Shown here one piece after another: positions 42,354 to 47,858 of a stretch of 49,265 nucleotides of DNA; position 1 is the first letter of the stretch, and the number at the start of each line of letters is the position of its first letter. A model generated the notes under the pieces. That model ran no database searches. It had not been told where the DNA came from and was given only the letters and a program-made list of their open reading frames with translations. The stretch is from IMG/VR virus record IMGVR_UViG_3300020477_000043, positions 1-49,265 of that record; one strand, given 5' to 3'. The DNA comes from a virus. The translations under genes were made by a program, and so were the position numbers.

Positions 42354-42410
42354 TCTTACTAAATGAAATATTTTTTAAAATTTGTAGTAATTATATATTT
42401 ATATATTATT

Positions 42411-42448
42411 TATAACCTGAAACCCCCTAAAGGGGTTTCATGGTTATA
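42411..42448. terminator. Hairpin 1, 16-bp stem with one bulge
   Basis: TATAACC plus TGAAACCCC (42411-42426) pairs with GGGGTTTCA (42432-42440), a bulged T and GGTTATA (42442-42448). The loop is CTAAA. AT-rich flanks surround the GC core, so it may terminate transcripts on either strand. Confidence 0.7.
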
Positions 42449-42473
42449 TTAAAATATTATTATTATTTAAGAA

Positions 42474-42510
42474 TAACCTCCAACCCCCTTATAGGGGGGT
42501 TGGATGGTTA
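42474..42510. terminator. Hairpin 2, bulged stem like hairpin 1
   Basis: TAACCT plus CCAACCCCC (42474-42488) pairs with GGGGGTTGG (42495-42503), A, a bulged T and GGTTA (42506-42510). The bulge and the outer arms copy hairpin 1 while the core differs, so the two may be duplicated elements. Confidence 0.7.
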
Positions 42511-42566
42511 TGTATATTTATTAGATATATTATATTATGCTATTCCACCACCCCAATATTACTTTT

Positions 42567-42584
42567 AAAGGCACGGCCTTTTTT
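42567..42584 (+). terminator. Small intrinsic terminator-like hairpin
   Basis: AAAGGC (42567-42572) pairs with GCCTTT (42576-42581) around ACG, followed by T's on the plus strand. It is oriented for rightward transcripts, although no rightward gene precedes it. It may stop antisense or spurious transcription. Confidence 0.5.
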
Positions 42585-42590
42585 ATATTT

Positions 42591-42622
42591 ATAACATAAC
42601 CCCCTATAAGGGGTTATGTTAT
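42591..42622. terminator. Hairpin 3, perfect 13-bp stem
   Basis: ATAACATAACCCC (42591-42603) pairs with GGGGTTATGTTAT (42610-42622) around CTATAA. It lies 12 bases after the stop of the HAD-like gene (minus strand), a natural terminator place. A short T/A-rich tract follows on that strand. Confidence 0.7.
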
Positions 42623-42633
42623 AATTCATAATA

Positions 42634-43745: not shown

Positions 43746-43902
43746 ATATAAATACACTTGTGGGTCATGTAAGTTAGATGACGTAAAACAAATTAAATAT
43801 GTTTTTGAAGGAATTATCAGAAGACCAATTTGTGGTTTTTGTAATGGGGGACTAGAAAGAAAGTTTTTAACTCCACCTAAAAATTGGAATAGAAAAGTTT
43901 AA
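43738..43902 (+). CDS. FmdB-like zinc-ribbon protein (54 aa)
   Basis: MPRYKYTCGSC at the start and PICGFC later give two CxxC knuckles separated by about 25 residues. This is the pattern of FmdB-type zinc ribbons (M-P-x-Y-x-Y-x-C-x-x-C). The frame fills the gap before thyX and ends in TAATG, sharing the A with the thyX start. Family members are regulatory or nucleic-acid-binding; the phage role is unknown. Confidence 0.7.
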   Translation: MPRYKYTCGSCKLDDVKQIKYVFEGIIRRPICGFCNGGLERKFLTPPKNWNRKV

Positions 43903-44534
43903 TGAAGGTTGAATTAATTGAAAAACTTGGATCAGACTTAACAGTAGTAAATGCGGCAAGGGTTAGTTTTGATAAACATCATAAAAATTTTACAGAAGGC
44001 GATGAAAAACTTATTAAATATCTGGCTTCTCATGGTCATTGGACTCCATTTGGGCATCCGCAACTTCAATTTAGAATTTATGCTCCAATATTTGTGGCAC
44101 GTCAGCTTGTTAAACACCAGGTAGGACTTGTTTGGAATGAGGTTAGCAGAAGATATGTGGATTCTAAACCACAATTTTACATACCTAAAGACTGGAGAAG
44201 TAAACCTATAGATAAAAAACAGGGGTCTGGCGAGGAAATAGTCGAATTAACACATTCTGAGTGGACAGATATTTCTGATTTACTTACTAATTCAAATGAA
44301 ACATACAATTTATTAATTAGAAAAGGTGTAGCACCAGAACAAGCTAGAATGTTATTACCGCAATCAACATATACGGAATGGTATTGGACTGGAAGCCTCT
44401 ATGCTTTTTCTAGAATTTGCAATTTAAGGCTTTCTAAAGATGCTCAAGCTGAAACTAGCGAGATTGCCCAGCAAATTTCTGATTTAATACAACCAAAATA
44501 TCCTATTAGCTGGAGGTATCTTGTTAATGTATAA
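43902..44534 (+). CDS. thyX: Flavin-dependent thymidylate synthase ThyX
   Basis: This makes dTMP from dUMP with FAD, NADPH and methylene-THF, feeding DNA synthesis together with NrdJ. Seen are HGHWTPFGHPQLQFRI (44-59), the ThyX signature as KHQVGLVWNEVSRRY (71-85) and the C-terminal LLPQSTYTEWYWTGSL. The signature is K-H-Q-x8-S rather than the classic R-H-R-x7-S, a variant I know from phage and marine ThyX proteins. Length (210) is normal. The start overlaps the zinc-ribbon stop, and the end overlaps the SET gene. Confidence 0.93.
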   Translation: MKVELIEKLGSDLTVVNAARVSFDKHHKNFTEGDEKLIKYLASHGHWTPFGHPQLQFRIYAPIFVARQLVKHQVGLVWNEVSRRYVDSKPQFYIPKDWRSKPIDKKQGSGEEIVELTHSEWTDISDLLTNSNETYNLLIRKGVAPEQARMLLPQSTYTEWYWTGSLYAFSRICNLRLSKDAQAETSEIAQQISDLIQPKYPISWRYLVNV

Positions 44535-44880
44535 CCCACTACCTGAATCATTGACAATTAATGAGTCTAAGATTCATGGATTAGGTCTTTTTGCAATTAA
44601 AGACATCCCATTAGGGACGGATTTAGGCATTAGCCATGTCAAACACCCAGACTTTCCTCAAGGATGGCTGAGAACGCCTCTGGGGGGCTTCTATAACCAC
44701 ACAGACACACCTAATTGTAAGTTAAAAAGTGCTTATGTAGGTGTTTTTGAAGATCGTTTATCATGTTGTAGATTAATTACCATTAAAAATATTAAAAAAG
44801 GGGATGAACTTACTTGTAGTTACAGTTTATGGGATGAGGATAATGAATGGAAGAAAAATTTAGAGGATAATGCGTTTTAA
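44527..44880 (+). CDS. SET-domain protein (putative lysine methyltransferase)
   Basis: I start at ATG 44527 (117 residues). A TTG at 44521 lies closer to GGAGG and is the alternative. The core SET motifs are visible: HGLGLFAIKDIPLGTDL at the start, GGFYNHTDTPNCKL (the N-H-x-x-x-P-N-C motif that binds S-adenosylmethionine) and KKGDELTCSYSLW near the end. This is the minimal SET fold, usually a protein-lysine methyltransferase. No post-SET cysteines are seen. In a phage it may modify host or phage proteins; the target is unknown. It overlaps thyX. Confidence 0.82.
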   Translation: MYNPLPESLTINESKIHGLGLFAIKDIPLGTDLGISHVKHPDFPQGWLRTPLGGFYNHTDTPNCKLKSAYVGVFEDRLSCCRLITIKNIKKGDELTCSYSLWDEDNEWKKNLEDNAF

Positions 44881-45101: not shown

Positions 45102-45277
45102 ATAAATCATATGCCACCATTATAGATCAAGAGGACCCAATAATAGAGATGTATAAAAATTATATACACGTATTATTAGAGATAGATTCAGATGTATCCA
45201 ATGTAGAACAAACAGCATCTACGCTAGTATTATCTAATGTTTTAAATAAGATTTGGTTTCAGCTTAAAAAAAGTTGA
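45092..45277 (+). CDS. Small helical protein, paralogue B
   Basis: The start is GTG at 45092, inside the end of the membrane gene, with AAGGA upstream. The 61 residues (ATIIDQEDPIIEMYKNYIHV, then SNVEQTASTLVLSNVLNKIW) follow the plan of the 73-residue protein at 43524: T-x-I-D-x-x-D, a tyrosine-rich helix, then E-Q and a second helix. Not otherwise recognised. Confidence 0.5.
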   Translation: MGLNKSYATIIDQEDPIIEMYKNYIHVLLEIDSDVSNVEQTASTLVLSNVLNKIWFQLKKS

Positions 45278-45507
45278 AAGAACTTGGTGTAACTTTATCC
45301 AAAGATGATCTCAAGGCAATAGAGAAATTATTTAAATATAGATGGTCAGCATCTATTAGAAACTGGAAAGAACGAAATGTTGATGGGTGTCAATGGATAG
45401 TGGAGTGCCCAGATAGAAGAAATATTTGGCAAAGTGAAATTGGAATTTGTTTAGCAGATACAATAAACAATTTACTAGAGAGAATAGGGGAGGGAAGAAA
45501 TGAATGA
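45274..45507 (+). CDS. Small hypothetical protein before amt
   Basis: The start is probably TTG 45274, overlapping the preceding stop (TTGA). No ATG or clear SD is present, so the start is uncertain. The 77 residues have a helix (SKDDLKAIEKLFKYRWSASI), a compact Cys/Trp part (DGCQWIVECPDRRNIWQSE) and a C-terminal helix. It ends eight bases inside amt, so amt is coupled to it. Unrecognised. Confidence 0.5.
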   Translation: MKELGVTLSKDDLKAIEKLFKYRWSASIRNWKERNVDGCQWIVECPDRRNIWQSEIGICLADTINNLLERIGEGRNE

Positions 45508-46663
45508 TTCAGGCAATCTAGCTTTTATGATGCTAGCAACAGCACTTGTATTTCTAATGACTCCAGGCCTAGCGTTCTTTTATGCTGGCTTAGTGAGAAA
45601 GAAAAACCTTATACCCACATTAATGTATAGTTTTGTTTCTTTAGGTGTGGTGGGCACAATCTGGATGCTATACGGATATAGTTTAGCATTTTCTGGTAGC
45701 AACTCCTTTATAGGAAATTTTAATAACGTCTTACTTAATAATATAGATATTACTGATGGTGATACCCTTATCTTTATTGCATTTCAGGGTATGTTTGCAA
45801 TTATTACACCAGCCCTTATTACAGGGGCGTTTGTCGAAAGATTTAAGTTTACAACATATTTAATCTTTTTAGTTGCTTGGGTAACTTTTGTTTATATACC
45901 AATATGCCATTGGGTTTGGGCAGAAGGTGGTTGGTTAAATGAAAGAGGAGCCTTAGACTTTGCTGGTGGGACTGTAGTTCATATTAACTCAGGAATAGCA
46001 GCTCTTGTAGCAGCTTGGATGGTTGGCCCAAGAATAAATTTAAAAAAGGCAAGTAAACCAAACAGTATTCCATTTGTTCTATTAGGTATGGCTATGCTAT
46101 GGTTTGGTTGGAATGGCTTTAATGCTGGTTCGGAACTAGCATCTAACGCTAGGGCAGTCAATGCGTTTCTAGTTACTAATATTGCAGCATCAGTATCAAT
46201 GGTAACTTGGATGGTTTGTGAGTATATGCTTACTAAGAAAATAAACCCTATTGGAGCTGCTTGTGGAGCTATTGCAGGTCTAGTAGCGATCACGCCAGCT
46301 TGTGGTTTTGTTGAGCCAATCTACGCATTAGTAATAGGTTTTGGTAGTGGAGTAATATGTTACTTTACATTATTAGGATTTAAAAAATATATAAAGATTG
46401 ATGATGCTTTAGATGTATTTTCAATTCATGGTGTTGGAGGCATATGGGGTAGCCTTGCAACAGGTTTATTCGCCACCTCTGCATTAGGTGGAACTACTGG
46501 GATGATCGAAGGTAATATGCAAATATTATTAGAGCAATTAATAGCAGTGGGAACCACAATTGCATATTCATTTATAGTTACCTTTCTAATATTATTTATT
46601 TTAAAAATAACAGTTGGTCTAAGAACATCTATTCTTGAAGAAGCTAATGGTATTAAACTATAA
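45500..46663 (+). CDS. amt: Ammonium transporter (Amt/AmtB family), phage-encoded
   Basis: This 387-residue membrane channel moves ammonium into the cell. About 11 hydrophobic segments are present, starting at LAFMMLATALVFLMTPGLAF. All pore residues known from E. coli AmtB are kept: Phe gate F99 and F207, S211, W140, D153 (ALDFAGG) and the twin histidines H161 (TVVHINSG) and H310 (HGVGGIWG). The N-terminus starts directly with mature-like sequence and has no separate signal peptide. After the last membrane helix the protein stops at LRTSILEEANGIKL, so the usual cytosolic tail with a conserved EGLD...HGE.AY end is mostly missing. A GGGAGG site precedes the ATG. The 3' end overlaps the convergent AT-hook gene by 11 bases. 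Confidence 0.95.
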   Translation: MNDSGNLAFMMLATALVFLMTPGLAFFYAGLVRKKNLIPTLMYSFVSLGVVGTIWMLYGYSLAFSGSNSFIGNFNNVLLNNIDITDGDTLIFIAFQGMFAIITPALITGAFVERFKFTTYLIFLVAWVTFVYIPICHWVWAEGGWLNERGALDFAGGTVVHINSGIAALVAAWMVGPRINLKKASKPNSIPFVLLGMAMLWFGWNGFNAGSELASNARAVNAFLVTNIAASVSMVTWMVCEYMLTKKINPIGAACGAIAGLVAITPACGFVEPIYALVIGFGSGVICYFTLLGFKKYIKIDDALDVFSIHGVGGIWGSLATGLFATSALGGTTGMIEGNMQILLEQLIAVGTTIAYSFIVTFLILFILKITVGLRTSILEEANGIKL

Positions 46664-46940
46664 CTTTTCTACCAGACCTTTTATCCCAACAGCTTACACA
46701 ATAACCATTACCTAATTCTACATTTACTGCATCACATAAAGGTCTACCTCTACCTCTACGTCCTCTCCAGCTTGCATTTTTACAAGTACCTATGTTTATT
46801 TCTGGTAAAGAAACTTTTCTATCACGAACCCATGTTCCTCTTTTATATTCTTTTCTGCCTTTAATTTTTGAATAAGGCTGTCTTGGTCTACCCCTTCCAC
46901 CTTTTATTCCGCTATATATTTCTGTCCTTGTCTGATCCAT
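46653..46940 (-). CDS. AT-hook and cysteine-rich DNA-binding-like protein
   Basis: The 95 residues carry two AT-hook-like cores, GRGRPRQP (15-22) and RGRGRP (62-67), in a very basic chain, plus four cysteines (C53, C69, and CVSC at 81-84) that may bind zinc. AT-hooks bind the minor groove of AT-rich DNA, which fits this AT-rich genome. It faces amt tail-to-tail and overlaps the amt end. The Lys/Arg density suggests a nucleoid-like or regulatory protein. Confidence 0.65.
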   Translation of the reverse strand: MDQTRTEIYSGIKGGRGRPRQPYSKIKGRKEYKRGTWVRDRKVSLPEINIGTCKNASWRGRRGRGRPLCDAVNVELGNGYCVSCWDKRSGRKVIV

Positions 46941-47345: not shown

Positions 47346-47858
47346 TTATACCTCATGTCTTTTTACAACAGCAGATGCTTTTAAATCATCAAGAAAAATC
47401 TGCTTCATGTGTTTTGCAAATTCATATCCTGGTACTTCCATTGGATGAGTTTTAGCTGTATAAAATGGTCTTTGAATAATATACTTTAACATCCATTTCC
47501 AAAAACCAACCCTCTTTTGATCTTTAACGTGATATATCTCATGTGCCAAGACTGATAATATGATTGCTAAGTTTGTAAAATCATCTTTAAATCTTAATCG
47601 CCAGTTAACTTTTAAATCATTTTCCCAAGCAAAGGCTTTGGTTATATATACAGTATTGCCAATGGTTATAGCCCAAGCTTTAAAAGGGGCTTTATGACCA
47701 ATTTTAGAAAGAACCCCAGTTAATGAAAGATTAAAATTCAAAGTGTCATCTCCAAATATTTTCCCCAATTCGTCAGCTAATAAAAACCACCACTCCTCTG
47801 GGAATTTAAAATTAAGGTCTTTCTCTAGTTTTTTTATGTGTCTTGTATTCTTTGGCAT
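47346..47858 (-). CDS. HExxH metallopeptidase-like protein
   Basis: The 170 residues contain LAHEIYHVKDQ with H106-E107-x-x-H110, the zinc-binding helix of many metallopeptidases. E141 (HPMEVPGYEFA), about 30 residues later, is a likely third ligand, and aromatic-rich helices lie between. It resembles DUF4157-type or prophage-associated zinc peptidases. No signal peptide is seen, so the substrate is probably cytosolic, for example a host protein. GGAGG lies upstream of the ATG at 47858. A lysis (peptidoglycan) role is possible but not supported by a known endopeptidase motif. Confidence 0.65.
   Translation of the reverse strand: MPKNTRHIKKLEKDLNFKFPEEWWFLLADELGKIFGDDTLNFNLSLTGVLSKIGHKAPFKAWAITIGNTVYITKAFAWENDLKVNWRLRFKDDFTNLAIILSVLAHEIYHVKDQKRVGFWKWMLKYIIQRPFYTAKTHPMEVPGYEFAKHMKQIFLDDLKASAVVKRHEV

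Follow-up and report, generated by a model that had tools for sequence, protein, structure and literature searches.

A tailed phage carries an amt gene whose product retains the pore of the Amt family of ammonium channels and stops inside the conserved C-terminal region, an end state that is rare among Amts. The gene lies in a 49,265-base virus record of IMG/VR, analysed over its whole length (the window); the record is linear, has no end repeats and may be incomplete. Judging from the sequence, we propose that this amt is host-derived, that its channel works and that gating by PII proteins is weakened or lost. This explanation, taken as a whole, has an even chance of being correct.

Matches to portal, terminase, PolA-type DNA polymerase and ThyX occur in the same contig as amt, together with a RecA-like ORF and a ribonucleotide reductase-like ORF recognised by inspection. 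With these hallmark genes, and with a second contig (L001) that has the same upstream gene order, the original prediction of a phage-borne gene is borne out; a metabolic gene among phage hallmark genes is the arrangement expected of an auxiliary metabolic gene. A marine origin of the phage is suggested by its relatives and by the original prediction, rather than by a field of the record. The amt gene closes a run of plus-strand genes, thyX and a SET-domain gene among them, and its GC and GC3 match those of the phage genes. The end of the 77-aa ORF upstream overlaps the start of amt by 8 bp, a possible case of translational coupling. The features around amt are collected in Table 1.

Table 1. 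Features of the amt region (positions in the window).
Feature	Position	Strand	Evidence
thyX-like thymidylate synthase, upstream of amt	43902..44534	+	PHROG 85, E 1.9e-71
77-aa ORF upstream of amt	45274..45507	+	no Pfam/PHROG match; conserved in L001
Purine-rich Shine-Dalgarno-like sequence GGGGAGGGAAG ahead of the start codon of amt, within the upstream ORF end	45485..45499	+	
amt, Amt-family ammonium channel, 387 aa, C-terminal region truncated	45500..46663	+	Pfam, TIGR00836, AlphaFold2, tree, dN/dS
What is left of the C-terminal region, R375-L387, RTSILEEANGIKL; retains Arg, Glu and Gly, has K386 for Asp, lacks the distal HGE..Y	46622..46660	+	alignments
11 bp shared by amt (+) and the convergent AT-hook-like gene (-) at their 3' ends	46653..46663	.	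tail homology ends where overlap begins
Convergent 95-aa basic protein, two GRGRP (AT-hook-like) motifs	46653..46940	-	no Pfam/PHROG match

The phage protein is a member of the Amt/Mep ammonium channel family. It matches Pfam Ammonium_transp (PF00909) with an E-value of 2.3e-122 and TIGR00836 with an E-value of 4.5e-130 and 434 bits (cut-off 343), the latter match reaching model position 396 of 406, i.e. 10 positions short. All seven pore residues named in the original prediction are present, namely the twin histidines H161 and H310, the Phe gate F99 and F207, the binding-site residues W140 and S211, and the conserved D153. These seven are invariant in an alignment of 16 Amts; in an alignment of 42 Amts six are invariant and W140 is conserved in at least 90%. 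The AlphaFold2 model, whose input included 42 related sequences, has a mean pLDDT of 94.7 and a pTM of 0.94, and displays the expected run of long helices, as predicted for the eleven-helix Amt fold. At the start of the tail the model places a short helix (residues 378–383), and the last seven residues have an average pLDDT of 78. Foldseek found no match for the protein in the viral structure library at E<=0.001. Among solved structures, A. fulgidus Amt-1 and E. coli AmtB (PDB 2nuu, 2b2f for AmtB and Amt-1) are the protein's best relatives by sequence; they belong to the same family and share the pore and twin-His residues. Both differ from the phage protein in having a complete C-terminal region, and E. 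coli AmtB is closed by GlnK. The reading frame of the phage gene is free of stops and frameshifts. Taken together, the phage Amt is probably a working ammonium channel.

The C-terminal region of Amts holds five near-universal residues, an Arg, the Glu, Gly and Asp of the ExxGxD motif, and a Tyr (PMC4852598). The phage tail keeps R375, E381 and G384. At the position of the ExxGxD Asp it has a lysine (K386), and the protein ends one residue further, at L387; its last residues are LRTSILEEANGIKL, followed by the stop. All residues past 387 are missing, and the HGE..Y segment with them. The remaining tail has a net charge of 0, while the other tails have a median of -4 (range -9 to -1). The claim that the usual regulatory tail is lost therefore holds for the distal HGE..Y part and is slightly too strong for the tail as a whole, since three of its conserved residues are retained. 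The altered C-terminal region does not exclude membership in the Amt family, because the tail is a regulatory feature that varies in a few relatives (Tyr is absent in 9 of 91). A sequencing error could also have created the stop, and we considered this in the form of a frameshift that hides the tail. No tail-like sequence was found in the forward frames downstream of amt, so a simple frameshift is unsupported as an explanation and was rejected. Meanwhile, we considered the loss of the His partner in ICL3 (N188 in the phage protein) as a co-adaptation to tail loss and rejected it, since Asn or other residues stand there in many tailed Amts.

Aligning the C-terminus with cellular and viral Amts, as the original prediction suggested, confirmed the distal loss. 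All 91 other distinct full-length Amts extend at least 4 residues further than the phage protein; 90 of them keep the Asp of ExxGxD, and in 82 a Tyr stands in the stretch where it is expected. The shortest continuation among the 91 belongs to a viral locus, L044, that is itself suspect. The search of viral contigs for copies with the same end gave 42 other viral Amts whose 3' end could be read; 41 keep the tail, L044 again being the exception. As a second tail-less viral Amt it was rejected, for its amt adjoins RNA-phage-like genes and the contig is probably an assembly chimera. In a Chloroflexota sample of 251 genomes, the TIGR00836 matches listed (about 150) all reach positions 404–406 of the 406, and in a second bacterial phylum (118 genomes) nearly all matches listed reach 405–406; both lists hold the best matches and hence are no full censuses. 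Two of the matches listed for the second phylum are exceptions: one, within a longer frame, stops at 372, and the other stops where its contig does. Viral amt genes are already known; in the open-licence literature no description of a viral Amt cut short in the tail region was found.

Within the suspect locus (L044:1-5639, IMGVR_UViG_3300036404_000414), a 5'-cut bacterial-type amt stands directly before a gene set like that of ssRNA phages, with a maturation-like ORF, a coat-size ORF and a replicase-like ORF with YGDD. The amt tail is broken at the junction, and the contig is probably a chimera produced in the assembly of a metatranscriptome. A large group of viral Amts (most of L046-L087) shows approximately 30–36% identity to the phage Amt and keeps the full tail, which is often extended by 15–37 residues; these genes mostly have no PII gene nearby.

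The original prediction placed the stop of amt exactly at the convergent AT-hook gene, and the breakpoint indeed coincides with it. The 11-bp overlap begins inside amt codon 385, and the tail homology ends at residues 384–385. A recombination joint at this junction fits the coincidence, and we infer that the tail may have been lost in this way. The short end might instead be an assembly artefact, a false join of the 3' part of amt with unrelated sequence at approximately 46650. A single assembly shows the truncated 3' end. In favour of an artefact, the one contig found to be closely related (L001) breaks off inside amt, and no relatives of the convergent gene or of a gene at 47346-47858 were found in viral contigs. 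However, GC, GC3 and tetranucleotide make-up are unchanged across the junction, and this composition shows no sign of a chimera. The junction is also a tidy overlap of two gene ends, as is common in compact phage genomes, and the convergent gene is preceded by its own Shine-Dalgarno-like sequence, GGGAGG. We regard the artefact as improbable.

The phage Amt is sister to a Dehalococcoidia (Chloroflexota) clade in a tree of 78 Amts, with an SH-aLRT of 97. Its branch is long (0.79), which leaves the exact donor uncertain. The highest identities to cellular Amts are approximately 58–60%, and the two-residue PG insertion typical of Dehalococcoidia is absent from the phage 3' end. Matches in named phages were set aside as close relatives, being distant (<60% identity); many of them stand on short unannotated records that are probably host DNA. 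We suggest from the Amt tree, which goes furthest towards placing the host, that amt derives from a Dehalococcoidia-like (Chloroflexota) lineage, acquired by a marine tailed phage directly or via intermediates.

Dehalococcoidia Amts beside a PII gene (L003-L006, L145-L174) are the nearest relatives, with 50–60% identity and the same pore residues. Their tail is complete in every case and the PII gene lies directly downstream in nearly every case, whereas the phage has neither. At 28 of 30 loci of the class, a set that includes some genes fetched twice (e.g. L147 = L003), a PII (glnK-type) gene lies downstream of amt in the same orientation, no more than approximately 200 bp away, and the same holds for L003-L006. 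No PII gene match was found in the 49,265-bp phage record, which is linear and maybe incomplete, so that such a gene could lie outside it. At amt itself, the glnK-amtB pairing is absent, and the opposite-strand AT-hook-like gene occupies the side where the cellular relatives have the PII gene. A PII match is present in 8 of the 51 amt-bearing viral records searched, and many viral Amts have no neighbouring PII gene yet are tailed. It is the missing PII gene together with the missing tail that stands out in the phage amt.

L001 is the only close relative found in the amt searches of viral contigs. It shares the upstream gene order, with approximately 97% nucleotide identity, and ends inside amt at residue 308. 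Over residues 1–308, comparison of the two phage genes gives a dN of 0.014, a dS of 0.212 and a dN/dS of approximately 0.07, and 39 of the 49 amt differences fall at third codon positions. The pore region has thus been under purifying selection, a further property expected of an auxiliary metabolic gene. Because L001 stops at residue 308, this selection is not attributable to the time after the tail was lost.

That limit bears on a different reading, in which the channel is made and is poorly active or inactive through its damaged C-terminal region (D386K, no Tyr), tail loss being a recent decay after the neighbour gene moved in. The purifying selection may then predate tail loss. Mutations in ExxGxD inactivate AmtB and AtAMT1;1 (PMC4852598), and the neutral charge of the remaining tail, set against the negative tails of other Amts, points the same way. 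On the other hand, the protein outside the tail, pore included, is intact and the fold is predicted with high confidence. Moreover, complete removal of the tail does not always abolish AmtB activity. We consider such a decayed channel unlikely, although it is the strongest of the competing readings.

Amts are trimers with coupled subunits, so a third reading is that the truncated subunit mixes with host Amt in trimers and either relieves PII control of the host channel or poisons it. Inactive Mep1 inhibits Mep2 and Mep3 (PMC10433425), and the AmtB tail may mediate subunit co-operativity, according to the citation of Severi 2007 in the same paper. With the closest cellular Amts only approximately 58–60% identical, however, we think mixed trimers very improbable, slightly more so than the artefact.

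We return to the reading of a working channel with weakened PII gating. E. coli AmtB is shut by GlnK, whose T-loops enter the cytoplasmic vestibule of the channel; in the complex of the two proteins the AmtB tail takes on an ordered structure (PMC10433425). Activity, and possibly the coupling of subunits, is also influenced by the tail, and ExxGxD mutations can inactivate the channel (PMC4852598, PMC10433425). From this literature, reduced PII binding and reduced activity are both plausible for the phage protein. In the source lineage, amt would be followed by the glnK-type gene, and the channel tail would help to dock the PII trimer. The phage lacks the downstream PII gene and the tail sequence that starts at the conserved Asp. 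Its amt would be read with a block of same-strand phage genes, and the channel, with normal fold and pore, would probably raise ammonium entry into the infected cell. The likely result is that closure of the phage channel by host PII is impaired or abolished. GlnK also plugs the pore via its T-loop, which might leave some control in place after tail loss. We speculate, more tentatively than for the explanation as a whole, that this is a naturally PII-uncoupled channel, which keeps the pore, has lost the docking tail and the PII gene, and overrides the host's nitrogen-sufficiency shut-off during infection. Viruses of marine microbes are known to have nitrogen genes, glnK-amtB pairs among them, and the phage amt bears on the question of how such viruses meet the PII shut-off of ammonium uptake in their hosts. 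If the PII-docking segment is naturally missing and the pore intact, it would be a direct case of a virus that keeps uptake and drops the off-switch, and a natural experiment that separates the parts of the Amt tail needed for activity from those needed for control.

Viral glnK-amtB pairs of the ETSP oxygen minimum zone (Gazitua et al., PMC8115048) likewise place a phage-borne ammonium channel in marine water, with a proposed boost of uptake in infection. Those pairs have their own glnK beside amtB and sources in Bacteroidetes and Gammaproteobacteria, whereas here glnK is absent, the tail is truncated and the source appears Chloroflexota-like. The Amt of an Ostreococcus virus, as described for Monier et al. 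2017 in PMC9083009, is host-derived, as the phage amt appears to be, and is transcribed and transports ammonium; that virus infects a eukaryotic alga, in which PII (GlnK) gating is not the known control. Amt variants of ammonia-oxidizing archaea provide a precedent for tail length that varies together with glnK adjacency (PMC9277239). Those are cellular paralogues with an extended tail, while the phage protein is a viral truncation inside the core region.

In addition, the SET-domain protein gene (window 44521-44880, plus strand) adjoins thyX and has many relatives in viral contigs, with 41–49% identity. Where the minus-strand structural genes give way to the plus-strand block, at window 42395-42624, inverted repeats that are near-perfect lie clustered with terminator-like sites. 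The cluster contains an 18+18 nt palindrome, which is also present in L001.
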